64,000 nt of DNA. Source: Siphonodentalium dalli. Taxonomy: Eukaryota; Mollusca; Scaphopoda; Gadilida; Siphonodentaliidae. The stretch covers positions 159,049,465 to 159,113,464 of the forward strand of contig CP136068.1 in assembly GCA_032622095.1 (NCBI GenBank). Direction: 5' to 3'. Numbering within the stretch: position 1 is the stretch's first letter; each line of letters starts with the position of its first letter. The notes beneath the pieces are model-generated. The model ran no database searches. It saw nothing but the letters and a program-made list of their open reading frames with translations, and was not told where the DNA came from. A program made the position numbers and the translations under genes. Of the stretch, positions 668-38,935 are shown piece by piece.

Positions 668-1305
668 GTGAGTTGAAGACCCGTCGTGTCAGAAATAATA
701 GTTAGATACGATGATAATATTGTAGTGTTCAATGGCAATATAAATATAACGCACTGTGACTTACAACCACCGTTCACTTATGCGGATACAATTAGTTCAT
801 TGTAGTGTTTAATGGCAATATAAATATAACGCACCGTGGCTTCGAATCACCCGTTCATTTATGCGGATACAATCATTTCATTGTAGTGTTTAATGGCTAT
901 ATAAATATAACGTACTTGTATTTATATTGCCGTTCTCTTATGCGAAACAATCATTTCATTGTAGTGTTTAATGGCAGTATAAATATAACGTACTTGTATT
1001 TATATTGGCGTTCTCTTATGCGGATACAATCATTTCATTGTAGTGTGTTATGGCAATATAAATATAATGCACTGTAACTTACAACCACTCGTTCTCTTAT
1101 GATACAACCATTCCACTCCCATACACAAGGAACATGGTAACATGAATTACCAATATATTATATTGTAACAAATTATTATTGGGAATAAATATTATTAAAC
1201 CAACCATTTCTGTGTAGTATTTAATGGCAATATAAATATAACGCACTGTGACTTCAAATCACCCGTTCTCTTACGCTGATACAATAAATCAATGGTAGTG
1301 TTTAA

Positions 1306-1673
1306 AGATATAATATGGACTTATTCGGGTGTGTGAAGCTGATCAGTTAGTATTCATACTATGTCAACTGGTGGAATATAGTATTCTACTAACATCACCG
1401 AACATCTCGAGCAAATCAACCGTAACACTCCATAGAAAACTTCGCCTGAACTAGCGCTCCATTGTAAATATTTACCTCTCGATTCGGGACGCAACTACAG
1501 GCGATAAACTAACGAAAACGATTTTACCATCTAGAGTCGCTACATTTAATAAATACATAAGAATGATGGTGTGTCATGTCAATTTTGATATAATATTTGT
1601 ATAAAATAAGTACTTTTAGCAAGATTATTATCCATTTCTATTTGATCACCATACCGGAGTGTTTCACATCACT
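1306..1673 (+). mobile_element. TTAA-flanked short DNA transposon, family F1
   Basis: 368-bp element flanked by TTAA at 1302-1305 and 1674-1677. The insertion lies in the TTAA of a monomer of array A (tgTTAAtggcaat resumes on the right), so excision would restore the unit. It contains cggacttattcgggtg-like and tttgatcacc-like segments shared with copies at 15918-16281 (inverted) and about 19920-20170. No transposase is present. The TTAA duplication points to piggyBac-type mobilisation. Confidence 0.82.
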
Positions 1674-3441
1674 TTAATGGCAATATAAATATGCGGATAC
1701 AATCATTTCATTGTGGTGTTTAATGGCAATATAAATATAACACACTATGACTTCGAATCACCCGTTCTCTTATGCGATACAACCATTTCTGTGTAGTGTT
1801 TAATAACAATATAAATATAACGCATGTGACTTCGAATCACCCGTTCTCTTATGAGATACAATCATTTAATTGTAGTGTTTAATGGCAATATAAATATAAT
1901 GCACTGTGACTTACAACCACCCGTTCTCTTATGCGGATACAATCATTTCATTGTAGTGTTTAATGGCAATATAAATATAACGCATGCGACTTCGAAGCAC
2001 CTGTTCACTTATGCGGATACAATCATTTCATTGTAGTGTTTAATGGATGGCAATATAAATATAACGCACTATGACTTACAACCACCCGTTCTCTTATGCG
2101 ATACAACCATTTCATTGTAGTGTTTAATGGCAATATAAATATAACGTACTGTGACTTACAACCACCCGTTCTCTTATGCGATACAACCATTTCATTTTAG
2201 TGTTTAATGGCAATATAAATATAACGCACTATGACTTACAACCACCCGTTCTCTTATGCGATACAACCATTTCATTGTAGTGTTTAATGGCAATATAAAT
2301 ATAACGTACTGTGACTTACAACCACCCGTTCTCCTATGTGAATACAATCATTTAATTGTAGTGTTTAATGGCAATATAAATATAACATACTGTGATTTAC
2401 AACCACCCGTTCAATTATGCGATACAATAATTTAATTGTAGTGATAAATGACAATATAAATATAACGCACTGTGACTTCAAATCACCCGTTCATTTATGC
2501 GGGTACAATCATTTCATTGTAGTGTTTAATGGCAATATAAATATAACGCACTGTGACTTACAACCACCCGTTCTCTTATGAGATACAATACTTTCATTGT
2601 AGTGTTTAATGGCAATATAAATATAACGTACTGTGACTTACAACCACCCGTTCTCTTATGAGATACAATACTTTCATTGGAGTGTTTAATGGCAATATAA
2701 ATATAACACACTATGACTTCGAATCACCCGTTCTCTTATGCGATACAACCATTTCTGTGTAGTGTTTAATAACAATATAAATATAACGCATGTGACTTCG
2801 AATCACCCGTTCACTTATGTGAATACAATCATTTAATTGTAGTGTTTAATGGCAATATAAATATAACGCACTGTGACTTACAACCACCCGTTCTCTTATG
2901 AGATACAATACTTTCATTGTAGTGTTTAATGGCAATATAAATATAACACACTATGACTTCGAATCACCCGTTCTCTTATGCGATACAACCATTTCTGTGT
3001 AGTGTTTAATAACAATATAAATATAACGCATGTGACTTCGAATCACCCGTTCACTTATGTGAATACAATCATTTAATTGTAGTGTTTAATGGCAATATCA
3101 ATATAACGTACTGTGACTTACAACCACCCGTTCTCCTATGTGAATACAATCATTTAATTGTAGTGTTTAATGGCAATATAAATATAACATACTGTGATTT
3201 ACAACCACCCGTTCAATTATGCGATACAATAATTTAATTGTAGTGATAAATGACAATATAAATATAACGCATGTGACTTCGAATCACCTGTTCCCTTGTG
3301 CGGGTACAATCATTTAATTGTAGTGTTTAATTGCAATATAAATATAACGTACTGTGACTTACAACCACCCGTTCTCTTATGCGATACAATCATTTCATTG
3401 TAGTATTTAATGGCAATATAAATATAACGTACTGTGACTTA

Positions 3442-4802
3442 GGGCGCGTACACATGAAGCTGCAAGAAAATATCTGCAAGAAAATATCAGGTACAATTGT
3501 ACTCTGATATTTTCTTGCTGAAAAGATTACGCCCGTGAGAAAGCGGCGGGTTAGTTGACGTTGATTGAGCTCAATGTGACTAGTGTTAGTCGTGTTTGTT
3601 GAAGTGAATTACTGCGGACAAACAACCTATAGTCCATATCGAATATTCATAGAGCTATAAAGTGTTATGGAAAATTTAAAATGCCACCTATTTTAACGAG
3701 AAAGGAACGCGCCCTCTATGCATACAGTCCAAATTAAAGTAAAACAACTAAATCAAGGCATGTGAGGTACCAAATTATAAAGCATCCCCATATACGCAGA
3801 AGGTTTCCGTTCGGGGGTGTCCACCTTGGGAAATTCTAACTGCACCCCCCTTAAATCAGAATCAGACCAAACACAAGTTTTCCATAATTCCATTTGCACC
3901 CCCTTGCACCTCAGTGCTCTTAGGCCTAATATTAGACCATGGTTCGGCCCGGTGTGCGAAAATTTTGTAATCTGAACAAGAAAATCGCAAAATCCTACCA
4001 TCTAGACTAACCTCAATCATTCCTAGAGTTGGAAATTTCAAACCTGACACCCCACTTAGGTTGGAAAATTTACATCTGATGACAATTCCAATGGCAATGT
4101 TGACCAAATGTATGACAATATTGTTTTTTTTAAATTAACTAGCAGTTTTTGACTTTTGACTGGCCACGGGGGAGGGACCAGGACACAAGCTTTCAAAGTG
4201 TTGGAAATTTCCAACCTATCACCCCACTGAGGTTGGACAGTTTCCAACTGATGCCCATTTCAGACCAAAATTTTTACCGAAAATATGCAAATATTGGTCC
4301 AAAAACAATTAATTCCCCCAAGAAATGTTTTGAAAATCAAACTACAAGAACATTTTCAACCTATTGTTGGTGTGAAATTTCCAACTAATGTTTTGGCAGG
4401 TATGAAATGTCCAACTGTTGAAAATATTGACCAAAGTTGGGGGTGAGACACACCCCAAGCCCCCCCCTGTCGCCACGTCTCTGTACACACGTATATACAT
4501 GTATATATAATACATCAGCAGTTCTGACAACCAATGTAAAATGGAAATACGTAGTATGTTGAAACAGACGATATTATTGATGGATCATAACTCGAGTGCT
4601 TGAATTGTTACGATCATATCCCTGCGAGATTAGTTAACGGATACCGATGGCCACATATCAAGGTGAACACATATCACCAATTGGCGATAAAATATCAGCG
4701 CGCTGCCTTCGTAGGATATTTTCCGGTATTATTTATTTCATTGGTCAAGTAAGTCACATGGGGCATACCTGATATTTTCTTGCTGGTCATGTGTACGCGC
4801 CC
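3442..4802. mobile_element. Harbinger-like non-autonomous DNA transposon in array A
   Basis: 1361-bp element with about 30-bp imperfect terminal inverted repeats starting GGGCGCGTACACATGA and ending in the complement, followed internally by gcaagaaaatatc motifs. It is flanked by TTA at 3439-3441 and 4803-4805. Removing it restores the monomer text gtgacttacaacc. A 3-bp TTA duplication matches the TWA target of PIF/Harbinger elements. No transposase ORF is seen. Inside are two related stretches (about 4015-4075 and 4195-4255) beginning gttggaaattt and containing caccccactnaggttgga; a relative in inverse orientation lies at about 18370-18560. Confidence 0.82.
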
Positions 4803-5170
4803 TTACAACCACCCGTTCACTTATGCGGATACAGTCATTTCATTGTAGTGTATAATGACAATATACATATAATGCACTATGACTTCGAATCACCCGTTCT
4901 CTTATGCGATACAACCATTTCTGTGTAGTGTTAAATGACAAAATAAATATAACGTACTGTGACTTCGAATCACCCGTTCTCTTATGCGGATACAATCATT
5001 TAATTGTAGTGTTTAATGGCAATATAAATATAACGTACTGTGACTTACAACCACCCGTTCAATTATGCGATACAATAGTTTAATTGTAGTGTTAAATGAC
5101 AATATAAAAATAATGCACTGTGACTTCGAATCATCCGTTCTCTTATGTGAATACAATCATTTCATTGTAG

Positions 5171-5338
5171 TGTATAATGGAAATATAAATATAACGCACT
5201 GTGACTTCGAAGCACCTGTTCACTTATGCGGTTATACACAGGATCAGACTGATACGGGCGAGTGGTGGATCGGATCGGGATCTGAAGACGGCTCGCACAC
5301 GGGACCGTCTCAGGACCACACCTTCCTCACGCAAAACG
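5171..5338 (+). CDS. Exon 2: start of the MAM domain
   Basis: Exon between ttcattgtag and the donor at 5339 (aaaacg/gtgagt), phase 1 at both ends. It reads NINITHCDFEAPVHLCGYTQ, then DQTDTGEWWIGSGSEDGS and HTGPSQDHTFLTQN. The first two of the four conserved MAM cysteines (CDFE...LCGYTQ), the acidic/tryptophan stretch and the GPSQDHT signature are all present. The split codon from exon 1 (a + tg) gives Met. The upstream border is the last monomer of array A. An equivalent acceptor exactly 81 nt upstream (5089/5090) would add 27 in-frame residues, so the start is the least certain border of the gene. Confidence 0.85.
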
Positions 5339-6235
5339 GTGAGTCTCAAACTGGTTCCGGTCAGGGCCAAACCTTCCCCACAGAATACATTGTGTCTCAA
5401 ACTGTTGTCGATAAAACATGGACACGGCATCCTCGTGCAAAACGGTGAGGCTCAATCTGTTGTTGATTCATCAGGGTCACGCTTTCCTCTTTTAAAACGA
5501 TTTGAGTCTCAAATATATTTATGTCAATCAGGGCCATGCCTTCCTCTCACAAAATGGTGAGTTTCATACTGATGTCGACCAATCAGGGCCACGCCTTCCT
5601 CTCGCAAAATTGTGAGTTTCATACTGATGTCGACCAATCAGGGCCACGCCTTCCTCTCGCAAAATTGTGAGTTTCATACTGATGTCGACCAATCAGGGCC
5701 ACGCCTTCCTCTCGCAAAATTGTGAGTTTCATACTGATGTCGACCAATCAGGGCCACGCCTTCCTCTCGCAAAATTGTGAGTCTCATACTGATGTCGATC
5801 AATCAGGGCCACGCCTTCCTCTCGTAAAATGGTGAGTTTCATACTGATGTCGATCAATCAGGGCCACGCCTTCCTCTCGCAAAATTGTGAGTTTCATACT
5901 GATGTCGATCAATCAGGGCCACGCCTTCCTCTCGCAAAATTGTGAGTCTCATACTGATGTCGATCAATCAGGGCCACGCCTTCCTCTCGTAAAATGGTGA
6001 GTCTCATACTGATGTCGATCAATTAGGGCCACGCTTTCCTCATTTAAAACGATGCGCGTGAGTCTCAAATATGTTTCTATCAATCAGGGCCATGCCTTCC
6101 TCTCGTAAAATGGTGAGTATCAAACTGTTGTCGATTCATCTTTCCTCGTTTAAAATAATGCGCGTGAGTCTCAGACATGTTTCTATCAATCAGGACCACG
6201 CCTTCCTCTCGCAAAACGATGGGTGTTAAACTGGT
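5339..6235 (+). repeat. Array B: 55-bp minisatellite derived from exon 2 end plus its 5' splice site
   Basis: Starts at the exon 2 donor and runs as degenerate, then near-perfect 55-bp units (aatcagggccacgccttcct ... cgcaaaat, then gtgagtttcatactg). The exon 2 end reads tcaggaccacaccttcct ... cgcaaaacg/gtgagtctcaaactg. About four in five positions match across the exon-intron junction, so each unit carries a copy of the last ~10 codons and a GTGAGT donor. About 16 units; the middle ones (5570-6000) are the most homogeneous. Confidence 0.9.
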
Positions 6236-6768
6236 CCTACCATGGTCACACATTCCTCATTCAAAAGAGCAACTCATTGACGAATAGTTCCGTCAAGTTT
6301 GTCCACCAGGCAGAACCATTGGGTTATTCCGTAATACAATTTGGCCCTTCGTTTTTTTGTGTGTGATACCCATAATATATGAGCAGGGGGATGCTCGTTC
6401 CCCGGTCCCACAGTAGAGGCACTCCTGTATTGGACTCCGGTAGTGGAAACTTCACTAATGGTGTCCAGAGCCGTCTACCTTGCGGCAGCTTACAAAATTC
6501 AGGATAAGAGTAACAAAAGCATAGAATATAACAGTCTAGACTACCTTGGATTAACCTCCCTTTATCATATTCCCGTTTAAAAAGCAACTGATAAATTAAC
6601 CGCTCTTTATTAAGCGCATGGCATATTCGCCCAAAACTAATAAACAAGGTGTCATAACTCATGTGAGAAATTGTCTGGCGGATTCCAAATTCGAACTTGA
6701 ACCGTACCCGTACCCTAGATATCCTTATAGAATACCCGTTGATTTGATCCTTTCCCAATAATCAGTTG
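6236..6768. other. Intron 2 segment, unrecognised
   Basis: No known element recognised. A 144-codon open frame on the minus strand (6324-6758) has no recognisable domain and lies inside an intron of the plus-strand gene. It could be part of an undescribed dispersed repeat. Confidence 0.3.
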
Positions 6769-10678: not shown

Positions 10679-10845
10679 GACACTATGGATACATCAGTTC
10701 ATTCAACCTCGCACAACCAGACAGCCATGATGCCAGTGTCGCCAGGTTGATCTCGTCGGAATTCGACAATGGGAGAGGCTATTGCATACGTTTTTCATAC
10801 AATATGTATGGCAAAGATATTCGGTCGTTGCGAGTTTACATATCA
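10679..10845 (+). CDS. Exon 3: central MAM domain
   Basis: Acceptor ttaatttcgctag, donor atatca/gtaagt. It enters with two nt completing a split Gly and leaves in phase 0. It reads HYGYISSFNLAQPDS, then ASVARLISSEFDNGRGYC and IRFSYNMYGKDIRSLRVYIS. This is the MAM core with the third conserved cysteine and the characteristic aromatic, MYG and L-V-Y pattern. It joins exon 2 as LTQN-G-HYGYI, matching the family's usual ...GHYLY... continuation. There is no in-frame Met at its start, so a Met-to-stop ORF scan would miss it. Confidence 0.9.
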
Positions 10846-12012: not shown

Positions 12013-12123
12013 ACCCAAGGACATACCGGATATCCACTCTTCAAGGCCGAGGGTAACGCCGGAATAGATTGGATGACGACTGAAATGGATGTAGACTATG
12101 AATACACCGTTACCCCATTCAAC
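12013..12123 (+). CDS. Exon 4: MAM domain segment
   Basis: 37 codons, phase 0 at both ends; acceptor ctccatttcag, donor ttcaac/gtaagt. It reads TQGHTGYPLFKAEGNAG, then IDWMTTEMDVDYEYTVTPFN. It corresponds to the MAM strand-turn-strand region in which a glycine-rich segment, Trp and a YxV/F strand precede the final FEA segment. Confidence 0.85.
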
Positions 12124-12406
12124 GTAAGTCACATAGCTCTATTCAATGGTAATAACATGATTGTTTTTTTTGCAGCCAACATCGATAAATTATATATCAA
12201 ATTGCATGACGACAGATGACAGACAGACGAAATGATAATACAAATGCAGAAGAATTCATTTTTTTTAATGTCGGTATATAGCATGTTTAAATTCGTTTTT
12301 TGTAGGGAGAGGTTTCCCTTAATGAAAAATTATAGATTTGTGAGAGAGAAGAGAGAGGAGAGAGACAGTGTATAGTTGAAGTTTGTATTGTAAATAAATG
12401 TCACTT

Positions 12407-12676
12407 GGTATAATAGTTAAGTAGTGGTTAAGTCAGTGCGTTAATGTATTATCAATGTGTGGTATAATAGTTAAGTAGTGGTTAAGTCAGTGCGTTAATG
12501 TATTATCAATGTGTGGTATAATAGTTAAGTAGTGGTTAAGTCAGTGCGTTAATGTATTATCAATGTGTGGTATAATAGTTAAGTAGTGGTTAAGTCAGTG
12601 CGTTAATGTATTATCAATGTGTGGTATAATAGTTAAGTAGTCCTTAAGTCAGTGCGTTAATGTATTATCAATGTGT
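12407..12676. repeat. 54-bp tandem repeat, five copies
   Basis: Nearly identical 54-bp units (gtgtggtataatagttaagt ... cgttaatgtattatcaat) in intron 4. The last unit has gtcc for gtgg. I could not match it to a neighbouring exon. Confidence 0.9.
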
Positions 12677-12769
12677 GGTACATGTGATGGTTAGATGATT
12701 GCTTTTAAGGCATTGGATTTTCTTTTCTTACATATATGAATAGAAGTATACTACAATAATCTTTATTAA

Positions 12770-14480: not shown

Positions 14481-14604
14481 TTGGTGTTTGAAGCGACAAC
14501 ACTATCGTACGAGCATATGTCGTCCCTGAGCGGATATTACTTCTACGGGAACAAGGGAGATATCGCTATAGACGACATCCAGGTGTACAATACATCATGC
14601 AAAC
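14481..14604 (+). CDS. Exon 5: end of the MAM domain
   Basis: Acceptor tttgttttag, donor gcaaac/gtgagt; enters in phase 0, leaves in phase 1. It reads LVFEATTLSYEHMSSLSG, then YYFYGNKGDIAIDDIQVYN and TSCK. The VFEA ... GDIAIDDI ... C ending is the strongest MAM signature and supplies the fourth conserved cysteine. Confidence 0.95.
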
Positions 14605-14649: not shown

Positions 14650-14745
14650 ATCTCATTCACATTCTATTACTACTATGATAACACTAGACGACATCCAAAC
14701 GTACAACACGTCACGTATACGTGACTATTACGTCACATGGACGTA
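14650..14745 (+). pseudogene. Decayed copy of the exon 5 end and donor
   Basis: tagacgacatccaaacgtac ... acgtgactattacgtca repeats tagacgacatccaggtgtac ... acgtgagtatacgtca of exon 5 and its intron start, about 100 bp downstream. Upstream, attctattactactatgata resembles the exon's attacttctacgggaaca. Reading frame and donor are degraded. Confidence 0.75.
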
Positions 14746-15504
14746 CTTATGTTATTCCCCGGTTTTAGATGTCCATTAAGGAATATACAAGAGGTGGTGT
14801 GTGACTGAACGAGCTGATTAAATTTCCAGACTACAACAGTTTCCAGTATCATCATATTTGGTGAATAAGTTGGAAGGGAGATATCAAGGAAATATCTCAC
14901 CAGATATAGTCCGTGATCGCATTTATTACATCGTAGACATCATAACATCATGCTATACATGCGGCCATATTACACACATTCATCTTGTAACATATGGAGG
15001 ATATTTATGGCTTTGGGTGAGCAATTCAGATCGGCTCACCCACGTATACACGTACATGTATAATTAGTAGACTGTAAATACAGAATTAGCCATTCTGAAT
15101 ACCTATATCAGAGTGCTACTTTGTGGACAATTATTTCATTGTTTATCTGCATTGATTAGCTGTATCAGATGTTCGTTTCTATAGTATTCGCCTTAGGTTC
15201 GTTTCTTCGTTAGGTTAGGCTTTCTCGCAATTTCGACCTTTTCTTTGTATTAATCAGCTGGCTTTTCATATGCAACTTGTCAATTCTTGCCCAAACATGT
15301 GTTCATTAATTACCATTCATCGCACGTATTCTTAATTTATTAGCTTTACTTTTAATAATTAATAATATGTCAAACTGTTAATGCCACTGTGGTGATCGGA
15401 TATTTTATAATGCAAATATATTAAGCGAATCCCGCTTGGTTAATTCACACATGTGCATTCTTTGTATATCAGAATTTGTAACACTGTGTTATGTTACTGT
15501 GCAT
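14746..15504. other. Intron 5 segment, nothing recognised
   Basis: AT-rich sequence without a recognisable repeat or coding segment. Confidence 0.4.
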
Positions 15505-18009: not shown

Positions 18010-18245
18010 GTCACGTTCTGTTACTTCTACGGGTGCAAGGGGTATCGATATTTATGACATCCACGCGCACAATACATCACGTAGTCGTGATTATTACGCC
18101 ATCGTGATGTAAGTATTACGTCATCGGGTCTCACCTCGGCCATATTCTATTACTTCTACGGGAACGACGGGATATCGCTATAGACGACATCCACGCGTAC
18201 ACTACGTCATGCAGACGTGGATGTTACGTCATCGGAACACATCTT
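18010..18245 (+). pseudogene. Two further decayed copies of the exon 5 end
   Basis: Two ~125-bp units at about 18010-18110 and 18135-18245 repeat ttacttctacgggaac ... gggatatcgctatagacgac ... acgtcat from exon 5 and its intron start. They lie 3.4 kb downstream of exon 5, so the original duplication block was probably split by later insertions. The frames are broken relative to exon 5. Confidence 0.75.
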
Positions 18246-18560: not shown

Positions 18561-18587
18561 TCCAAGCTGTAAGTCAGTCAGTCCCGT

Positions 18588-18787
18588 CGCTACCCTGGTT
18601 TGAATGCTGCCATCATGTATATAGAGTTCAGTCCCATCGCTACCCTGGTTTGAATGCTGCCATCATGTATATAGAGTTCAGTCCCCTCGCTATCCTGGTT
18701 TGAATGCTGCCATCATGTATATAGAGTTCAGTCCCCTCGCTACCCTGGTTTGAATGCTGCCATCATGTATATAGAGTTCAGTCCCCT
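18588..18787. repeat. 50-bp tandem repeat, four copies, just upstream of exon 6
   Basis: Near-identical 50-bp units (cgctaccctggtttgaatgc ... gagttcagtccc) ending 18 bp before the exon 6 acceptor. The cag/tccc in each unit resembles a 3' splice site. Some similarity to the exon 6 start (tcccgtcatgccctg) is visible but weak, so I leave the origin open. Confidence 0.9.
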
Positions 18788-18805
18788 CGCAATTGTTTCT
18801 TGAAG

Positions 18806-19009
18806 ATATCCCGTCATGCCCTGCTGGTGCTGTGACACGATTGGACAACTCGACCAACACTCAAGTGTGCTATTCGGTCCATACAATTCGACGATCTTGG
18901 TATGACGCCGCTAGGGTGTGCAGGGCAGAAGGAAAATACGGACACCTGATAACAATTAACAACGCAGACGAGCAGCAATTCATAGCTGACCACATATCAC
19001 AAAGCAAAG
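18806..19009 (+). CDS. Exon 6: first half of the C-type lectin domain
   Basis: Acceptor aattgtttcttgaag, donor aaagcaaag/gtaagt, phase 1 at both ends. It reads IPSCPAGAVTRLDNST, then QVCYSVHTIRRSWYDAARVC and RAEGKYGHLITINNADEQQF. The N-terminal cysteine pair, the WYDAARVC helix with the first core cysteine and the LITINN..EQ segment are those of the C-type lectin fold. The split codon with exon 5 (c + at) gives His and links the MAM and lectin domains without a spacer. Confidence 0.92.
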
Positions 19010-19775
19010 GTAAGTCATCACACCACATATCACATACCACATGTCAGTCATCATCGTAACACATATCACATAACACATGGTAGTCATCATCGTAACGCAT
19101 ATCACAAAACAACGATAAGTCATCGCCGTACCACATATATCACAAAACAACGATCAGTCATCGCCGTACCACATATCACAAAAAAGGATGTAAGATCAGC
19201 CCTCACCATAATATAAATCACAAAACAACGATCAGTCACCGCCACATATCACAATTCAAAGGTCAGTAATCTCAGTAAAACTTTATATCACAAAACAAAG
19301 ACCAGTCATCACCGTAACACATATCGCAACACAAATGTCGGTCGTCGCCGTTACACATATCACAAAACAACAATCAGTCATCGCCGCATATAACAAAATA
19401 AGGCCAGTCATCGCCGTAACACATATTACAAAACAAAGATCGGTCATCGCTGTAACCCATATCACAAACAAAGGTCAGTTATCGTCGTAACACATATCGC
19501 AACACAAATGTCCGTCATCGCCGTTACACACATCGCAAAACAAATGTTGGTCATCGCCATTATACATATCACAAAACAACAATGAGTCATCGCTGCATAT
19601 AACAAATGGAGGCAAGGCATAGCCGTAACACATATCACAAAACAGAGATCGGTCATCGCCGTTACACATATCACAAAACAAAGGTTGGTCATCGCCTTAA
19701 CCTATATCATAAAACAAAGGTCAGTCATCACCATAACACACATCACAAAACAAAGGTCAGTCATCGCAGTAAAAC
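19010..19775 (+). repeat. Array C: 36-bp minisatellite derived from exon 6 end plus its 5' splice site
   Basis: About 20 units of roughly 36 bp (gtaacacatatcacaaaaca + aaggtcagtcatcgcc) start at the exon 6 donor. The exon end reads accacatatcacaaagcaaa + g/gtaagtcatcac, so each unit carries the last coding bases and a donor-like gtcagt or gtaagt. Twelve-residue repeats in minus-strand frames (e.g. VICVTAMTDLCF) are by-products. Confidence 0.9.
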
Positions 19776-19839: not shown

Positions 19840-20170
19840 AAGTCAAAAGCATGTGGAGTCATTTTGACCAACCCACACCCTTCAGCAAGTTAATATGGCT
19901 AACTCTTGTCTTAGTCAGTGTGACCACTCCATAGAAAACATCATCTGAACTACGCTAAATTGTAAATATTTACTTCTCGATTCGGGACGCAACTGTCGGC
20001 GATAAAGTAACGAAATCAATTTCACCATCGAGAGTCACTGAATTTAATTAATATATAATAATAGCGTTGTGTGTTGTCACTTATGATTTAAGATTTGTAA
20101 AAATAACTGCTTTGAGTAAGATTATCCGCCATTTCTATTTGATCACCACACCGGGGTGTTTCTTCCAATA
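19840..20170 (+). mobile_element. Truncated family F1 element
   Basis: From ~19920 it aligns with 1306-1673 (actccatagaaaac, gattcgggacgcaactg, tttgatcaccacaccggggt). TTAA ends are not recognisable, so this is a decayed copy. Confidence 0.6.
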
Positions 20171-22180: not shown

Positions 22181-22428
22181 ACCTGCAGAGGGTAGGCGTG
22201 GACGAATTTTGGACGTCCGGGAACGACGAAGTGGATGAATCACATTTCATGTGGACCGACGGTGATTGTGCGCATCCTGTGCTGAACTACACTGCATGGA
22301 AACCAGGACAACCGAACAACGTGGGCGCCAATCAGAACTGTTTACTCTTAGAGTATCCGGATTACGCGTACACGTGGGGCGATGGCAACTGCACCGATAA
22401 GAAACCGTTTATATGCGAACAGTCCTAA
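22181..22428 (+). CDS. Exon 7 (terminal): second half of the C-type lectin domain and stop
   Basis: It enters with two nt completing an Asp. It reads LQRVGVDEFWTSGNDEVD, then MWTDGDCAHPVLNYTAWKPG, QPNNVGANQNCLLLEY, WGDGNCTDKK, PFICEQS and stop. The FICE ending, the paired cysteines and the W-PGQPN-NC order define a long-form C-type lectin domain. The calcium/sugar motif is QPN rather than EPN or QPD, the usual WND is WGD, and the WIGL position reads FWTSG. Ligand specificity cannot be predicted. TAA is at 22426-22428. Confidence 0.95.
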
Positions 22429-22429
22429 A

Positions 22430-22480
22430 CGCGATGGCAACTGCACCGATAAGAGACCGTTTATATGTGAACAGTCCTAA
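22430..22480 (+). pseudogene. Tandem duplication of the last 51 bp of exon 7
   Basis: gcgatggcaactgcaccgat ... gaacagtcctaaac at 22378-22429 is repeated directly after the stop with few differences (aagaaacc/aagagacc, tgcgaac/tgtgaac), including a second in-frame-looking TAA. It lies in the 3' UTR. Confidence 0.93.
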
Positions 22481-23566
22481 ACAGTGACGTACAGTACATG
22501 ACTAAACACTCAACATCGTGTGGACCCAACTAGGGTTTTTTTTTATTTATTTGTTTCTCTCATCCAAGTTAATACACGTGTAATACAATGATATTGAGAT
22601 ATATAATTATACAAACAATAGAGATATAGAAATATTATACAATAGATATGTACATATGGGTTCGGGTCGATGGCATGTTGAAATTCGATGAATATATTCC
22701 TAGTTTTATTCTGACACCGCTACTAGCTTATTTTCGAAAGGAGTAATAACGGCGCAATCTCGTGTGAAACCTTGTTGGTTGGAGCAAATTATTTGATCGC
22801 AACGCGGTAATAAAAGGTTGATGTCTTCACAGGCACACGCGTGTGTTTATATTTAGTTACAAATGATAGGTTGCTACATGTAGATCGTCAATGTTAGTAT
22901 TTATACCATCGATGATTGACATATCGCTCACTCGTGACTATCGTATAACTGATTCCGGGAACCATACATATATACTAATATACCAAGTTACCAACATAGA
23001 AGCCAAGTATTAATATCATAACGTCTGACTATTTAAATAATCAATTATAACTAATATAATTGCAAATATACCTGCATACTCATTGCGCTTGTTGGCAGGT
23101 ATTTACTTTAATGTGGATGATCGGCTAGCTATCATCAGCAGAAAATTTTAGACTTTCTGTCAAACCCTGCATCTGAACATCACCATAGATGAATGAATGT
23201 GAATCCACACAGCTTCTCTCTCCGTGTCGTCTGCTCGAATCTACACATAATTATATCATAGCAAATCAAAAATAGACAGATTTATGAGGAGAAATTTCGA
23301 TGCATTAATTGTGATCTGAGAATACGTTCGTGATGATCCGAATGAAAGAACAAAGTCTGCGGAGTAATATGGGATTCTTCATATTGAGAATTTCATTTAT
23401 CGCGGTAGCATTTGTTCGTCTATTATATTTTGGTTGTAAAAAGCGTTTTCTTACATCCGTAAAGAACTCACATTCCAATAAATAATGAAATTCATCACCA
23501 CCGTGTATCGCCGGTATTGACGGTGATTGTTTCGCGATGATCCAAGGTGAACATGATTGGAACGTA
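22481..23566. other. Intergenic / 3' flank of gene 1
   Basis: An AATAAA is present at about 22808, a possible polyadenylation signal. Otherwise no repeat or gene is recognised. Confidence 0.4.
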
Positions 23567-28668: not shown

Positions 28669-31600
28669 GTTCTATAGAAATTCACAGGGGACCATCTAGA
28701 TGATGCCAAAGGGGTCTACTAGGAGTAGCTTTTTACGAGAAAGATAATGGTCGGGGTTAGAAATTACTAAAGTGACGCCGTTGTTGTCAGGGGCAGAAAA
28801 GGGGGAAGGGCAGAAAAACAATTTGTCGCCGATTGCCACCAAACTTATATATAATCATCCCCATAATATGAGGAATCTAATGGCGTGGTTTAAAGATGGC
28901 TAAAGTCGCGCCGTTCGCGTCAGGGGTGCCCGGAAGGGGGGGGGGGGGCAGATTTTTTTTCTGTCGCCGATTGCCACGAAACTTACATATAACCATCCCC
29001 ATGATATGAAGAATCCAACGGTGTGGTTTAAATGTGTCAAAAGTGGCGTCGTTTGAGTCGGGGATGAACGGAAGGGGAGAGGGGCACCAAAATTGATAAA
29101 ACTAATTTTAGCGCCGATTTCCACCAAATTGATATATATTCTTCTTCGTGATACAAGGAATCTAATTGTGCGATTTAACAACCCTAAATTGTTGTTTTTG
29201 GATGAGAGATTGGGAGGGGGTGGGCACAAAATTTGATAATAAGTCGCCGATTGCCACCACACTTATACAAAATCATCCCATGGTATGAGGAGTCTAATGG
29301 TGTGGCATTTATCTGTCAAATGTGGCCTCATTCGAGTCAGGGTTGCATTGAAAGGGACAGGGGCACCAAAATTGATGCACAATTTTTTTAGCGCCAATTT
29401 CCACCAAATTGATACACGTTCTTATCCATGATACGAGGAGTCTAATCGTGATTTAAAGACGCCATAGTGGTGCTGTTTGGGTGAGAGATGGAGAGGGGAG
29501 GGATTGGCACCAGTTTGATAAAAAAAATTGTTTAGTCGCCGATTATCACCAAACTTATAAACAATCATCTCCATGATATCAGGAGTGTAATCGTGTGGTT
29601 TGAGGATGTCACAAGTGGGGCCATTCGAGTCAGTGGTGTATATAGATGAGAGGGACAAAAAAAATTATATCTATATGTTTAGTGTCGATTTCCACCAGAT
29701 TGATACTTATTCTTCTCCGTGATACGAGGAATCTTATCGTGTGGTTTAGATACACCAAATTGGTGCCCTATGGGTGAGAGATATGGGGACCTTAAATTTG
29801 ATACGAATTTGTATACTCGCCAATTTTCACCAATTTCATATATATGCATCTCTAATCTCTAATGAGTCTTAGTGTGTGCATCTTGAGTCCGAAATAGGGA
29901 CGGGAGGGTCACCAAAACTGATACAAAATATTTTTAGTACCAATTACCATCAAATTCAGACACGTTCTTCTCAGATGATACAAGAAATAAAATCGTGCTG
30001 TCTGTCTGTATTTTTGTCTGTCTGTGTGCGTTCTATGTATAACTTCATGCGGTACAATCGAGATGGCACCAAGGCGTTCTAAGATGGGTAACTTTTTACA
30101 AGGAAGATAATGGTGCGGGTTAAAATTTTCTAAAATGACGCTGTTGGTGGCAGGGGAAATTATAAAAATATGGTGAAATAGTTTTGTTGCTGATTTCCAC
30201 CAAACGAATACATAATCACCTTCGCAATATGGCGTTGTTCGAGTCAGCGTTGCATCAACAATTGATTTAATAAACCAAATTCCACTAAATTCATACACGT
30301 TTTTCGCTAATGATATACCATGAACTAAATCACATTTGGTGTCGTTTGCGTCACGGATGGCGAGCGGATATGCACTATCAATAATTCATTGATAAGATTG
30401 CTATTCGCCAATATCCACATATAAGTTATATACAGTCACCAGGCCATATCCATATCATTTTAAGTAGTTGGGCGTTCATATTTCACAATCCCGACATATG
30501 GTGACCCACATAAGTCACTTGAACAATTACATCTTCTTAACAGTCATATTTATATCGGAATGGCAATCAAGGCATTCACACAATGAGCTAACAAAAAGAG
30601 ATAACTAGAAGAAGCATTAAACGTATATTTATCATTCTATTGAAGAGATACATATATTCGTGCAAACTGAGAGACCTCGAACCGTCAGAGGATTGCATAT
30701 ATATAATAACAAAATTTAGTCTGTTCCATTCAATACAGTTTCCACAAAAAGTTACAATTTGTCAAGAAATATGGAAGGCCTGTTCAAAAACAGTGGCCAC
30801 AGTGTGCAGTCAAATATAGTTTCTTCTGATATACAAGAAAATGCAGTTAGTAGCACAAGACTTTTCAGGATCATACCAATCTGACAAGGGTATTAGAACA
30901 GACTCATCGACTGACATAAACAAATCAAAATCTCGCTCTGTGCCTGGCACATGTAGCTGATATATATGCGCAGCAACATTTCGTTTCATGGAGATATGAT
31001 AGCCAGGTGTCCTCGAGATCTTAGACCAACCCACTAGATTGTCTGTCTGTCTGTCTGTGTTCTATAGAAATTCACAGGGGACCATCTAGATGATGCCAAA
31101 GGGGTCTACTAGGAGTAGCTTTTTACGAGAAAGATAATGGTCGGGGTTAGAAATTTCTAAAGTGACGCCGTTGTTGTCAGGGGCAGAAAAGGGGGAAGGG
31201 CAGAAAAACAATTTGTCGCCGATTGCCACCAAACATATATAATCATCCCCATAATATGAGGAATCTAATGGCGTGGTTTAAAGATGGCTAAAGTCGCGCC
31301 GTTCGCGTCAGGGGTGCCCGGAAGGGGGGGGGGGGGGGGCAGATTTTTTTTCTGTCGCCGATTGCCACGAAACTTACATATAACCATCCCCATGATATGA
31401 AGAATCCAACGGTGTGGTTTAAATGTGTCAAAAGTAGCGTCGTTTGAGTCGGGGATGAACGGAAGGGGAGAGGGGCACCAAAATTGATAAAACTAATTTT
31501 AGCGCCGATTTCCACCAAATTGATATATATTCTTCTTCGTGATACAAGGAATCTAATTGTGCGATTTAACAACCCTAAATTGTTGTTTTTGGATGAGAGA

Positions 31601-33765
31601 TTGGGAGGGGGTGGGCACAAAATTTGATAATAAGTCGCCGATTGCCACCACACTTATACAAAATCATCCCATGGTATGAGGAGTCTAATGGTGTGGCATT
31701 TATCTGTCAAATGTGGCCTCATTCGAGTCAGGGTTGCATTGAAAGGGACAGGGGCACCAAAATTGATGCACAATTTTTTTAGCGCCAGTTTCCACCAAAT
31801 TGATACACGTTCTTATCCATGATACGAGGAGTCTAATCGTGATTTAAAGACGCCATAGTGGTGCTGTTTGGGTGAGAGATGGAGAGGGGAGGGATTGGCA
31901 CCAGTTTGATAAAAAAAATTGTTTAGTCGCCGATTATCACCAAACTTATAAACAATCATCTCCATGATATCAGGAGTGTAATCGTGTGGTTTGAGGATGT
32001 CACAAGTGGGGCCATTCGAGTCAGTGGTGTATATAGATGAGAGGGACAAAAAAAAATTATATCTATATGTTTAGTGTCGATTTCCACCAGATTGATACAT
32101 ATTCTTCTCCGTGATACGAGGAATCTTATCGTGTGGTTTAGATACACCAAATTGGTGCCCTATGGGTGAGAGATATGGGGACCTTAAATTTGATACGAAT
32201 TTGTATACTCGCCAATTTTCACCAATTTCATATATATGCATCTCTAATCTCTAATGAGTCTTAGTGTGTGCATCTTGAGTCCGAAATAGGGACGGGAGGG
32301 TCACCAAAACTGATACAAAATATTTTTAGTACCAATTACCATCAAATTCAGACACGTTCTTCTCAGATGATACAAGAAATAAAATCGTGCTGTCTGTCTG
32401 TATTTTTGTCTGTCTGTGTGCGTTCTATGTATAACTTCATGCGGTACAATCGAGATGGCACCAAGGCGTTCTAAGATGGGTAACTTTTTACAAGGAAGAT
32501 AATGGTGCGGGTTAAAATTTTCTAAAATGACGCTGTTGGTGGCAGGGGAAATTATAAAAATATGGTGAAATAGTTTTGTTGCTGATTTCCACCAAACGAA
32601 TACATAATCACCTTCGCAATATGGCGTTGTTCGAGTCAGCGTTGCATCAACAATTGATTTAATAAACCAAATTCCACTAAATTCATACACGTTTTTCGCT
32701 AATGATATACCATGAACTAAATCACATTTGGTGTCGTTTGCGTCACGGATGGCGAGCGGATATGCACTATCAATAATTCATTGATAAGATTGCTATTCGC
32801 CAATATCCACATATAAGTTATATACAGTCACCAGGCCATATCCATATCATTTTAAGTAGTTGGGCGTTCATATTTCACAATCCCGACATATGGTGACCCA
32901 CATAAGTCACTTGAACAATTACATCTTCTTAACAGTCATATTTATATCGGAATGGCAATCAAGGCATTCACACAATGAGCTAACAAAAAGAGATAACTAG
33001 AAGAAGCATTAAACGTATATTTATCATTCTATTGAAGAGATACATATATTCGTGCAAACTGAGAGACCTCGAACCGTCAGAGGATTGCATATATATAATA
33101 ACAAAATTTAGTCTGTTCCATTCAATACAGTTTCCACAAAAAGTTACAATTTGTCAAGAAATATGGAAGGCCTGTTCAAAAACAGTGGTCACAGTGTGCA
33201 GTCAAATATAGTTTCTTCTGATATACAAGAAAATGCAGTTAGTAGCACAAGACTTTTCAGGATCATACCAATCTGACAAGGGTATTAGAACAGACTCATC
33301 GACTGACATAAACAAATCAAAATCTCGCTCTGTGCCTGGCACATGTAGCTGATATATATGCGCAGCAACATTTCGTTTCATGGAGATATGATAGCCAGGT
33401 GTCCTCGAGATCTTAGACCAACCCACTAGATTGATTGATACATCTCAATTTGTAAAACCCAATTATCATCTTTTATCGAACTAATGTGTTTATGATGTTC
33501 ATGTATCATATTATAACGTCTAATGTATACGCAGTTGTAAATAAATAAATACTTCATAATTGGTGGAACGGATTAATCGCGATAAACAGAATGACAATTG
33601 ACAAGGTGAGCCACTACTTATATTCCATGACTGTAATAATCATGTTTTGTGATGCTATTTGAATATACAATTTATGAGAAAACGTATAACACTTTAAGCA
33701 TTCTCTATTCTCAACAAATTTCCACAGCATACATTAACCTGGGCAACGCCGGGTAACCCTGCTAG
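28610..33765 (+). mobile_element. Putative Helitron-like non-autonomous element with internal duplication
   Basis: It begins TCTATATCTATATTTGCG before a (CTGT)n run. It ends in a short hairpin (cctgggcaacgccggg, 33738-33753), then taaccctg and CTAG (33762-33765) followed by T. A 5' TC, a 3' hairpin and CTRR-T are Helitron hallmarks, and the left neighbour base is A. The body consists of degenerate ~110-130 bp blocks (gtcgccgattgccaccaaac, then gaggaatctaatggcgtg). No Rep/helicase ORF is visible. The assignment rests on the termini only. Confidence 0.55.
28648..33432 (+). repeat. Near-identical 2.39-kb tandem duplication
   Basis: Copy 1 about 28648-31039, copy 2 about 31040-33432, offset 2391-2392 bp. 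Long stretches, including several open frames, are identical; differences are confined to rare substitutions and homopolymer lengths (e.g. the G run near 28935 and 31324). An older, diverged duplication lies inside each copy (a ctgtctgtctgt / ttctat.taacttca block near 29998 resembles the start). Confidence 0.93.
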
Positions 33766-34162: not shown

Positions 34163-35085
34163 ACTACTTAGGGTTAAGGTTAGGGTTAGGGTAAAGTTAG
34201 AGATAGGTTTAGGGCCATGATTAGGGTTATAGTAAAATTAGTGTTATAGTTTTGGTTAGGGTTTGGGCTAGGTTTAGGGTTAGGGTTTTGGTTAGGTTTT
34301 GGGTTAGGGTTAGGATTATGATTAGGGTTAGAGTAAAATTGGGGTTACAGTTTTGGTTGGGGTTAGGGTTAGTGTGAGGGTTAGGAATAGGATCATGGTA
34401 ATGATTAGGGTTAGAGTAAAATTAGGGTTATGGTTTTGGTTATGGTTTGGGTTAAGGTAAGGGTTATGATTAGGGTTAGAGTAACATTTTGGTTAGGGTT
34501 TGTGCTATTGTTAGGGTTATGGTTAGGATTTTGGTCAGGGGTTTGGCTAGTTTTAATATCAGTGTTATTGTTTATGTCAGGATTGTGAATAAACTTAAAA
34601 ATATGGCTACGATCATGGTTATGGTTATGGGTTAGAGTCAGTTTTAGGGTTGTGAGTTAGGTTATTTTTAGAGTTCGGATTATAATTATGGATAGGGCTA
34701 TGTATAAGCATCATCGTTAGGGTTATGGTTATGGGTTAGATTCAGGTTTAGAGTTGTGAGGTTAGAGTTCGGATTATAATTGTGGATAGGGTTATGTACA
34801 AGGATACGGTACGAATCATCGTTAAGGTTACTGTTATGGAAATATTTTGGGCTATGCATGGGTTTATGTTCTTGGAAATGGTTAAGGCTAAGGGCAGGGT
34901 TAGGGTTATGAGTAGATAATGGTTATGTTTAGGGCTAAGGTTATTGTTAGGGTTATGGATAGGTTAATGTTAACCAGTAAAAACTGTTGTCAGTAATATT
35001 CAAAGGAATTGTGCTATGGTTAGGCCAGTCGGTATGGTTAGATTTATAAAAAGTTTTAGGTTTGTGTTAGGTATATGGAATATAT
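34163..35085. repeat. Degenerate TTAGGG-like array, copy 1
   Basis: About 0.9 kb built of gggttagggtt-like hexamers with many variants. From about 34186 it is closely similar to 37341-38125, including non-hexamer landmarks such as aggccagtcggtatggttag. Copy 1 holds an extra internal ~100-bp duplication. Confidence 0.85.
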
Positions 35086-37340
35086 ATGTTTTTATGTGTA
35101 AGCAATATTTGCTAAGTGGGTGTCTGACCAGGTAACACGTTGTCCAGACGTAGTGAACACCAAACCTGGCACACCAGAATGACAAAAACAAGTCAAAGTG
35201 AGATGCCGGCAGGTAGACCAGAGGCCTTTTGGAAAAGTCAAATGAGGATAAGAGCAAAAACGTCTTAAAACATATTTGTCAAAAGAATCGTTAACGCAAT
35301 ACTGCTGGACACAAAATACACGGGCTATGTTGCAACGTCTCCTCTACACACACTATGCTTGGCAATATTTTAAGTTCCCGTCCCGATGACTCAGTAAGTA
35401 AGTAAGGCACATTGTACTAAATGGAGGGGACCTCGATGACCCAGTCAGCAAGGCGCACGAACTCCCACACGGAAACCCCGATGTCCCAGTCATCAACGTG
35501 TATGACCCTCTTACGGGTTGGACCCCGGTGCCTCAACCGGTAAGGTGCATGGTATTATCATGGAAGGACCCGGTGATATAATTAGTAAGTCGTATACAAT
35601 CTTATGGATGGGAACCGGTGTCCAATATTACCACGGATGCGGCCCCGGTGCTTCAACCAGCAAGGCGCATGGCCATAAACCTTAATTTCTTATCTGGTCC
35701 CCAACATAAATCAGTTTGTGGTGTATCTATGACACAAGGGTTGCCAGCCACCAAGTAATGTAACTATATATATTTATAATATCAAATAACATATATGTAG
35801 TGGGGTTGTATATAGTCCAAAGCAACCCCGAAACTCAACACTAGGATGTGATACTAACATAAGATAATAAATTGTTTGTATATTATATTAATAAATGTGT
35901 TAAAGTCTATACATATTAATAATGCCATATAAGCAGTGTGCTTGTTAAAAATAATAACAGGTATTAAAGTTCCTCAAAGTAGTAACAGGTAGACTAGTTT
36001 ATAGAATTTATAGTTAATAAGTGATTGAAAAGTCTAGTTTATAACTATGCCCTTGTTGTTATCGGGTGGTACCGGCATCCAACGAGATCGCATCGCCCGT
36101 ATAAATTCCCACATTTTAAATATTTCCGCGCTATCATATATGCGCATTTTACATATTAGATATCGGTATACACAAATTATGGCATCCAGGTGAGACATAA
36201 AAATCTCTTGCGGAAAACAGACGCACACGGACGGACGGGCGGACTGAACAAACGGCAGACAAGGAATGTCGGCCACAAAACGTTATCCGACATTATATTA
36301 AATATGTATTAGCGACTTTAATGTGTCAAGGAGTTGATTGTATGCGTGGATGGAGTTGGACCGTTGGAGTCCGCAATATTTATAACAACCAACGCTATCC
36401 AAATACATGCACACGCACGTGTTACATGCTTGACACTCTGGGGTCCGGAGCCCCCGTCTTTGCAAAATAATTGCGCTTAACATGTATACATATGTAAACC
36501 ATAATATTTATATACTTATTAAAAGATACCAACACTGAATATTTTCAATTATCGAATTATCCACACACTATCGTGACAAGTTATTTCGTTTACTTGATCA
36601 AGGGAGGTCCCGTTGTTTGATCATTGGCAACCATAAGTCCGTATTAAAATAAATAATAGATAAACAAATCCTCATGCAACACAGCAACCCCGAGTCAAAG
36701 GCCAAACATGCAGCAAGCATCCACACGTCACACGACAACATGTCCATCCTACACTTGTCATGATAATTGATATATAGGGCTGTTGTTAGTAAGTAATTAA
36801 ATTACAAACCTATACATATGACATGGTGAACGCTCTTTATGTAGAGTATATAACAGTTATGTATATATATGGTACATCGGTTGGAAATGTGTTCAAAGTT
36901 CCCATGCATACAATTTGTTATCGTGATAGCAGACAAAAACGTGGGCCATCCCACATACAGGTATACAATCAACCATCCATAAGTTAAATGGTTTGTTGGT
37001 TAACGGGTCCTGTTTCTAAAGTGGTGTTGACATGTGGAGCTATGTAAACATGTCATATTTACTGTATTTGAGTGTTTATTTTTTGAGTGTTTATTTTTTG
37101 ACTTATCGTACTAGCTTGATAACACAGAAGGAATCAATTGTTTGGAAAATGTTTACTAAGTCCGTTCCGAAATCATATTTTTATACCGAAAGTTGGTCCT
37201 ATAAAAAAATGTTTGGCCACAGCAGCTCATCAGGTACACTTCTGGTCTATAACAAATATAAAGCAATCTGTTATTTCATATGTGGTTTCGGGAGTATAAG
37301 TGCACGACCTTATGGACAGACCAGTTCTCCCGTACAGACC
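35086..37340. repeat. Spacer with degenerate SINE-like units (35380-35680)
   Basis: Four to six degenerate units of the type ccccggtgcctcaaccggta + aggtgcatgg, spaced about 60-100 bp. They look like a tRNA A-box region (a similar ggtgcctaggtcggtaaggt is at 51690). I see no B box. The rest is AT-rich with no gene recognised. Confidence 0.4.
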
Positions 37341-38125
37341 AAGTTAGGGATAGGATTAGGGTTATGATTAGGGTTATAGTAAAATTAGTGTTATGGTTTT
37401 GGTTAGGGTTTGGGCTAGGTTTAGGGTTAGGGTTTTGGTTAGGTTTTGGGTTAGGGTTAGGATTATGATTAGGGTTAGAGTAAAATTGGGGTTACAGTTT
37501 TGGTTGGAGTTAGGGTTAGTGTGAGGGTTAGGAATAGGATCATGGTAATGATTAGGGTTAGAGTAAAATTAGGGTTATGGTTTTGGTTATGGTTTGGGTT
37601 AAGGTAAGGGTTATGATTAGGGTTAGAGTAACATTTTGGTTAGGGTTTGTGCTATTGTTAGGGTTATGGTTAGGATTTTGGTCAGGAGTTTGGCTAGTTT
37701 TAATATCAGTGTTATTGTTTATGTCAGGATTGTGAATAAACTTAAAATTATGGCTATGATCAGGGTTATGGTTATGGGTTAGAGTCAGGTTTAGAGTTGT
37801 GGGTTAGGTTAGAGTTAGAGTTCGGATTAGAATTGTGGATAGGGTTATGTACAAGGATACGGTACGAATCATCGTTAGGGTTACTGTTATGGAAATATTT
37901 TGGGTTATGCAGGGGGTTATGTTCTTGGAAATGGTTAAGGCTAAGGGCATGGTTAGGGTTATGAGTATATAATTGTTATGTTTAGGACTAAGGTTATGGT
38001 TAGGTTTATGGATAGGTTAATGTTAAACAGTTGTCAGTAATATTCAAAGGAATTGTGCTATGGTTAGGCCAGTCGGTATGGTTAGATTTATAAAAAGTTT
38101 TAGGTTTGGGTTAAGTATATGGTTA
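37341..38125. repeat. Degenerate TTAGGG-like array, copy 2
   Basis: Closely similar copy of 34186-35085 in the same orientation, about 3.2 kb away. It flows directly into the 42-bp array. Confidence 0.85.
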
Positions 38126-38159
38126 TGAATATGGTTATTGTGAGTGTTATGGATAGGAT

Positions 38160-38935
38160 TAGGGCTATTCATTGTGTTAGGGTTAAGGATATGATTGAGG
38201 TTAGTGTCGTGGGTAGGGTTAGGGTTAAGCCGCCGTTAGGGATATGATTGAGGTTAGTGTCGTGGGTAGGGTTAGGGTTAAGGATATGATTTAGGTTAGT
38301 ATCGTGGGTAGGGTTAGGGTTTAGGATATGATTGAGGTTAGTGTCGTGGGTAGGGTTAGGGTTAAGCCGCTGTTAAGGATATGATTGAGGTTAGTGTCGT
38401 GGGTAGGGTTAGGGTTAAGGATATGATTGAGGTTAGTGTCGTGGGTAGGGTTAGGGTTAAGGATATGATTGAGGTTAGTGTCGTGGGTAGGGTTAGGGTT
38501 AATAATATGATTGAGGTTAGTATCGTGGGCAGGGTTAGGGTTAAGGATATGATTGAGGTTAGTGTCGTGGGTAGGGTTAGGGTTAAGCCGCCGTTAAGGA
38601 TATGATTGAGGTTAGTACCGTGGGTAGGGTTAGGTTAAGGATATGATTGAGGTTAGTGTCGTGGGTAGGGTTAGGGTTAAGGATATGATTGAGGTTAGTA
38701 TCGTGGGTAGGGTTAGGGTTAAGGATATGACTGAGGTTAGTATCGTGGGTAGGGTTAGGGTTAAGGATATGATTGAGGTTAGTGTCGTGGGTAGGGTTAG
38801 GGTTAAGGATATGATTGAGGTTAGTGTCGTGGGTAGGGTTAGGGTTAAGGATATGATTGAGGTTAGTGTCGTGGGTAGGGTTAGGGTTAAGGATATGATT
38901 GAGGTAAGTGTCGTGGGTATGGTTAGGGTTAAGGA
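38160..38935. repeat. 42-bp TTAGGG-derived tandem repeat
   Basis: About 17 units of ggttaaggatatgattgagg + ttagtgtcgtgggtagggttag. Because 42 is a multiple of three, frames stay open (MIEVSVVGRVRVKD repeats). Not considered a gene. Confidence 0.93.

Follow-up and report, generated by a model that had tools for sequence, protein, structure and literature searches.

Tandem copies of splice junctions flank a MAM exon in the scaphopod Siphonodentalium dalli

We analyzed a window of 64,000 nucleotides of the Siphonodentalium dalli genome (contig CP136068.1; positions below are those of this window), in which a gene on the + strand runs to a stop codon at 22428 and contains a chitin-binding exon, a MAM domain (exons 2-5) and a C-type lectin domain (exons 6-7). 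When joined, its seven exons form 443 triplets; the opening one is incomplete within the window, and the closing one is the only stop. Exons 4 and 5 were assigned from their position, splice sites and reading frame, and exon 4 had no Pfam match when it was searched alone. The exons and the first intron are as follows.

362 to 667, + strand: exon 1, the first in the window (Peritrophin-A; Pfam CBM_14, 8.5e-9); as read from the splice sites, it ends in phase 1 with the donor GTGAGT at 668
668 to 5170, + strand: intron 1, 4503 nt
5171 to 5338, + strand: exon 2, start of the MAM domain, 168 nt, phase 1-1 (Pfam MAM, 1.7e-6; paralogues)
10679 to 10845, + strand: exon 3, MAM domain (Pfam MAM, 3.9e-6)
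12013 to 12123, + strand: exon 4, expected middle of the MAM domain (open frame, splice sites)
14481 to 14604, + strand: exon 5, end of the MAM domain (MAM, 0.045, below the cut-off)
18806 to 19009, + strand: exon 6, first part of the C-type lectin domain (Lectin_C, 5.4e-5), with the donor GTAAGT at 19010
22181 to 22428, + strand: exon 7, end of the C-type lectin domain and stop (Lectin_C, 2.6e-9)

A 52-bp stretch across the stop codon of exon 7 occurs twice (22379-22482).

The junction between intron 1 and exon 2 is present in head-to-tail tandem copies within intron 1. The repeated unit of ~81 bp consists of ~20 nt from the intron's 3' end and ~60 nt from the 5' end of exon 2, and the units are mostly 80-81 bp long (range 77-84). 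We laid out 32 units from 719 to 5241, comprising 31 upstream units and the exon-2 copy that holds the genuine junction; a 20-bp fragment (1673-1692) and a unit split by a transposon (3394-3441 plus 4803-4838) were omitted from this alignment. On the left flank, homology to the unit starts near 704-706. The array is interrupted by the 1361-bp transposon and by two other stretches that are not made of units (1112-1207 and 1289-1672), such that the 4503 nt of intron 1 are made up of 2616 nt of junction copies, 1361 nt of transposon and ~0.5 kb of other sequence.

704 to 5160, + strand: acceptor-side array, 31 laid-out units (unit alignment, self-matches)
3442 to 4802, + strand: transposon within one array unit, with ends GGGCGCGTACACATGA and target duplication TTA
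5161 to 5241, + strand: last unit, the aligned stretch holding the genuine acceptor and the start of exon 2 (alignment; MAM match of the exon)

Matches between the edge of exon 2 and the upstream units had E-values from 6.6e-45 to 1.9e-7, with identities of up to 91%, which excludes chance as their source; the array that a first-pass annotation had placed at 726-5338 is therefore real. As that annotation also stated, the last unit is exon 2 with the start of the MAM domain, where the Pfam match covers profile positions 1-38, and it is at the downstream end that a copy continues into the remainder of the exon. Its description of the individual units needs more qualification. The statement that every unit carries ttcattgtag was too strong: the exact string is present in 13 of the 32 rows, TTAATTGTAG in 10 and TTCTGTGTAG in 5, while three rows have strings of their own and one is cut. 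The units do contain the codons that begin exon 2, but the encoded peptide differs between them (e.g., NINITHCDFESPVLLCGY or NINITHCDLQPPVLLCGY), and the reading frame changes where a unit has 80 bp. The amplified segment, described as a short intron plus an exon start, does join the tail of an intron to the start of the exon, but it takes in ~20 nt of the intron and not the whole of it. The count of ~30 decoy acceptors agrees with an AG in 30 of the 31 upstream units (GG in the one at 1707), with "decoy" to be read as a description of the sequence only.

Within the 32-row alignment the units have a mean pairwise identity of 0.85, and the exon copy is an outlier, with a mean identity of 0.80 to the other units compared to 0.85 among the others. 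The unit closest to it is u10 at 1947 (identity 0.889), which has a stretch in common with exon 2 that is absent from the other units and may reflect an exchange between this unit and the exon. Two block duplications are visible in the array: units 18-20 match units 21-23 at 0.975, 0.988 and 1.00, and units 14-16 match units 24-26 at 0.975, 1.00 and 0.926. The first 119 bases of the transposon are found at 99-100% identity in at least 40 places in the genome (40 were scored of 1127 candidates), and its insertion looks recent; as it sits inside an array unit, the array is older than this insertion.

The other end of exon 2 is also copied. There, the unit consists of the last ~29 nt of the exon, the donor GTGAGT and the start of the intron. 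It is followed by 15 further copies (5361-6236), mostly of 55 bp, with some of the copies towards either end of the array more diverged; behind exon 2, GTGAGT occurs at 12 further sites, from 5557 to 6164. Donor-side copies are found at two later exons of the gene as well. The 3' edge of exon 5 and its donor region recur at 14685-14750 (4.6e-8), 18021-18127 (1.1e-15) and 18148-18238 (1.0e-22), and exon 6 has a donor-side array of ~21 copies of ~36 bp, which are much diverged and have lost the donor GT in several cases. A self-match search for edge copies of exons 3 and 4 found none.

5310 to 6236, + strand: donor-side array of exon 2 (self-matches, repeat units)
18990 to 19772, + strand: donor-side array of exon 6, with CACATATCACAAAGCAAAG joined to GTAAGTCATC as its unit

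To place the array in the genome (2.23 Gb in 9 contigs), we searched for its unit and for the exon-2 peptide. The first-pass annotation had named units elsewhere in the genome as evidence against its reading, and all 22 of the matches listed by the unit search, which skips very common words, fall within the array. We therefore reject the idea that the gene took up a dispersed satellite, though not absolutely, given the words skipped. Among these matches there was neither the one unit at many loci that defines satellite DNA nor the sequence common to unrelated genes that defines an introner or transposon-borne intron; the unit was found at the array locus only. The peptide gave 68 matches, the array's own included. 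The best paralogue, L001 (C5:60.34 Mb), is 61% identical over query residues 3-48; its acceptor, read by eye, lies in the same region and phase as that of exon 2, its donor is of phase 1, and an off-diagonal self-match sought at its exon edges was not found. In all five of the paralogues fetched, the MAM start C-x-F-E ... C-G/N-Y is kept, and in none of the five is there a tandem array at the corresponding acceptor. Edge copies are not wholly absent from these paralogues, since in L002 the acceptor edge recurs once, as a diverged 34-bp stretch ~1.2 kb upstream (82%, 3.8e-5), and L005 has one 27-bp upstream copy of sequence within the exon (4.7e-4). With array-free paralogues and units at one locus only, exon 2 was very likely the source of the array. 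The left flank suggests that the ancestral intron 1 would have been 58 nt long: the acceptor of the first unit has its last base at 725, which leaves 58 nt of intron before the first exon copy (668-725); this length fits such an intron and agrees with the annotated start of the array 58 nt past the exon 1 donor.

Comparable structures have been described in other animals. A minisatellite with multiple splice donors was reportedly found in human IFI6 (G1P3) by Turri et al. in 1995, and its units are said to be short. The donor side of exon 2 resembles it in being a minisatellite that bears splice donors and differs in that IFI6 has one donor array, whereas acceptor and donor arrays surround one exon here. 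Closer in form are the mirages of lancelets (amphioxus), minisatellite-like duplications of intron/exon boundaries that reportedly leave splicing undisturbed (PMC3087553). Mirages are present in Adh3, the globins BflGb6 and BflGb9, and troponin C, with similar repeats in PGBD5 (PMC3087553, PMC3902484); the BflGb6 mirage is known in two haplotypes (PMC3087553), and boundary repeats are listed in further lancelet genes (PMC3902484). Amphioxus mirages and the exon 2 arrays have in common a tandem unit that spans an exon/intron boundary, at 5' or 3' edges, and AG or GT kept in many copies (here, the 30 AG and the 12 further GTGAGT); with the acceptor array they share turnover inside the array from which the boundary copy is excluded, here seen in the lower identity of the exon copy and in the block duplications. 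All three anatomical features of a mirage, i.e., a boundary-spanning unit, retained splice signals and inner homogenization, are thus found here. Amphioxus mirages are backed by RNA evidence, whereas the present arrays are known from genomic sequence, and exon 2 differs from them in having copies on both sides, 31 upstream and 15 downstream. Mirages are known from cephalochordates; in the present genome, at least eight of the 9 contigs exceed 200 Mb, unlike the small chromosomes of Branchiostoma, and searches for GFP-family and molluscan haemocyanin genes gave no match, a result that does not establish their absence. In human segmental duplications, internal tandem repeats are also reported at exon-intron boundaries, where minisatellite expansion likewise touches exon edges and offers new splice sites; the human repeats give rise to variant exons or introns in recent paralogues, whereas the copies here are diverged intronic DNA (PMC2812944). 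The splice-junction minisatellite is therefore a kind already known, of which exon 2 is a large, clear and two-sided example. The first-pass annotation overlooked the donor-side array of exon 2, the copied donors of exons 5 and 6, and the precedent of the mirages.

To look for edge arrays elsewhere in the genome, we surveyed 45 loci (L001-L045, some overlapping and many of them single-exon lectin or MAM genes), scanning for repeats and then for self-matches of the match region plus 150 bases on each side; a kinase family of 20 loci in one tandem gene cluster was left out. At least one off-diagonal match at an E-value of 1e-3 or better was present at 21 of the 45 loci, in most cases no more than one or two pairs that were short or weak; the sequence of eight of these 21 was inspected (L002, L004, L005, L008, L013, L020, L023 and L024). 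In a cluster of MAM genes on C7, L003 has a donor-side array of 26 bp in 5.0 copies in which GTGAGT is kept (the exon of this array lies outside the self-match query region), L004 has one of 48 bp in 12.9 copies whose start, read by eye, is no more than 4 bases ahead of the exon end, with the donor GTCTGA, which is not strong, L066 has an array of 40 bp after an exon, at its donor, and L068 has a doubled acceptor. A further candidate, L008, was rejected as a splice-edge array: its 36-bp array derives from sequence after the stop, and behind its last (lectin) exon lies a second, diverged copy that covers most of that exon. In a chaperonin gene (L076), the 5' edge of an exon is duplicated once upstream with the acceptor TATTTCAG (73% over 109 columns, 1.6e-11), a duplication that the repeat finder did not flag. 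In the chaperonin sample, which comprised 16 exon matches, some below the family cut-off, one of 32 exon ends overlaps a repeat, a trivial one of 13 bp.

We then asked how often exon edges would fall in arrays by repeat density alone, as estimated by circular shifts. Arrays cover 26.9% of the region of the MAM/C-type lectin gene by the repeat finder and 37.4% when extended by homology, the latter figure being inflated by one extension that spans the transposon. With homology-extended arrays, 4 of this gene's 13 edges fall within an array versus 5.0 expected, and with repeat-finder arrays alone 2 of 13 versus 3.6 expected, both counted with splice points of exons 3, 5 and 6 that are 1-2 bases off the final ones. 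The C7 MAM sample gave 2 of 46 exon ends (L066 and L068) versus 4.8 expected. None of these counts is above expectation, and splice junctions as hotspots of repeat birth are not supported; this points to a neutral by-product rather than to some particular property of splice sites.

Taken with the anatomy of the locus, we consider it highly probable that the exon 2 arrays are a splice-junction minisatellite of the mirage kind, which would have arisen by tandem duplication and unequal exchange and has a mirror array at the other end of the exon. The likeliest course of events is that a minisatellite was born and grew neutrally at the exon edge, because junctions are not struck above what repeat density predicts. 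By this account, a segment of ~81 bp across the junction of intron 1 and exon 2 would have been duplicated in tandem, after which unequal exchange would have made the array grow and homogenized it. In a tandem duplication of S within X-S-Y, the true right flank stays with the rightmost copy, so that the copy continuous with the remainder of exon 2 would remain functional, and the copies to the left of the working junction would end up in the intron, free of coding constraint. Intron 1, with a predicted 58 nt to begin with, would in this way have reached 4.5 kb, the transposon contributing, and at the other end of exon 2 the same process would have run in mirror image. Exon definition would select the innermost acceptor-donor pair (168 nt). 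Since the genuine sites are this innermost pair and every decoy lies outside the 168-nt exon, splicing would most likely be normal, judging from exon definition, general knowledge of splicing and the lancelet reports.

Other explanations account for parts of these data. If the array were maintained as a set of functional decoys or alternative acceptors, whether to modulate splicing or to extend the MAM domain in frame, the AG in 30 of the 31 upstream units and the 12 further GTGAGT behind exon 2 would be expected, and the nearest upstream acceptor (exon base 5090) does provide an open, in-frame extension of 27 codons ahead of exon 2. However, 29 of the 30 upstream AG acceptors, when used without further splicing, encounter a stop codon upstream of the exon 2 donor, and conservation of the AG does not exceed that of other columns (one change, permutation P 0.37). 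Changes counted by parsimony on the unit tree are also spread evenly over the three codon positions (26 in 20 columns, 27 in 21 and 28 in 21), with no codon-position bias. The array copies drift like non-coding DNA, selection on decoy sites is rejected on this evidence, and we regard a retained decoy function as unlikely.

Two further alternatives concern how the copies came to be there. Inflation of a shorter duplication through misassembly might leave higher-order blocks with identical units, as seen here for u15/u25 and u20/u23 (both at 1.00), and one mirage was apparently assembled aberrantly in a draft genome, according to PMC3087553; but most units differ from each other (mean identity 0.85) and each insertion is found at one place, unlike assembly stutter, making an artefact highly improbable. 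In the reverse order of events, a pre-existing satellite would have supplied the start of exon 2 by exonization of a repeat, in keeping with the fact that the first codons of exon 2 belong to the last repeat unit. This already disfavoured origin is hard to reconcile with five of five fetched paralogues that have the MAM start and no tandem array, or with the lack of a unit elsewhere among the genome matches listed, and we give it next to no credence. A neutral splice-junction minisatellite that grew from exon 2 itself accordingly stays our preferred explanation.

For splicing, exon 2 offers a natural test of how the spliceosome chooses among near-identical pairs of sites, by exon definition or by first-AG rules. 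As MAM genes of a second chromosome also carry edge copies, and a chaperonin gene has one exon edge duplicated once, splice-junction minisatellites may represent a wider route of intron growth beyond lancelets. We put forward, as a tentative and rather doubtful extension, that introns across many genes of this large genome grow by repeated copying of their own junctions; the outcome would be introns composed largely of near-copies of acceptors and donors, exons set between nested rows of decoys, and a standing supply of alternative exon starts and ends. If introns do grow in this manner, use of the acceptor one unit upstream of exon 2 would place 27 in-frame codons before the MAM domain.

At the acceptor of exon 6, which codes for part of the C-type lectin region of the gene, we found a repeat with a 50-bp unit (4.3 copies, window positions 18578-18790), the last copy of which stops ~15 nt short of the exon; exon sequence is not clearly part of this repeat. 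Intron 4 of the same gene contains a 54-bp unit in five copies (12406-12680), and, as these copies are almost perfect (99% identity), this array is evidently very recent. By eye, we also recognized a dispersed sequence, ctccatagaaaac ... cgattcgggacgcaact, that is present both in intron 1, within the array of acceptor-side copies (1421-1560), and in intron 6 (19926-20060).

Self-matches, together with inspection of the sequence letters, at MAM/lectin loci elsewhere in the genome identified the following additional duplications at the ends of lectin-domain matches (coordinates are locus-internal):

L023, 1382-1540, short tandem or near-tandem duplication at the end of the lectin-domain match
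L024, 1818-1935, short tandem or near-tandem duplication at the end of the lectin-domain match
L013, 1765-2089, short tandem or near-tandem duplication at the end of the lectin-domain match

Downstream of the gene, the window contains a ~2.4-kb block in two copies (28824-33444), with reading frames that repeat at +2388 to +2392 bases; this block is a recent tandem duplication. Several interstitial arrays of TTAGGG-like words follow at 34168-40809; part of this repeat DNA has a higher-order organization, with unit lengths of 42, 84 and 168 bp. An open frame of 1266 codons (55998-59798) presumably resembles a LINE endonuclease/reverse transcriptase. Elsewhere in the genome, one region (G000:C2:149826753-150592734) carries at least 87 closely similar protein-kinase reading frames, mostly of ~281 codons and, for many, spaced at ~2.4-2.9 kb.
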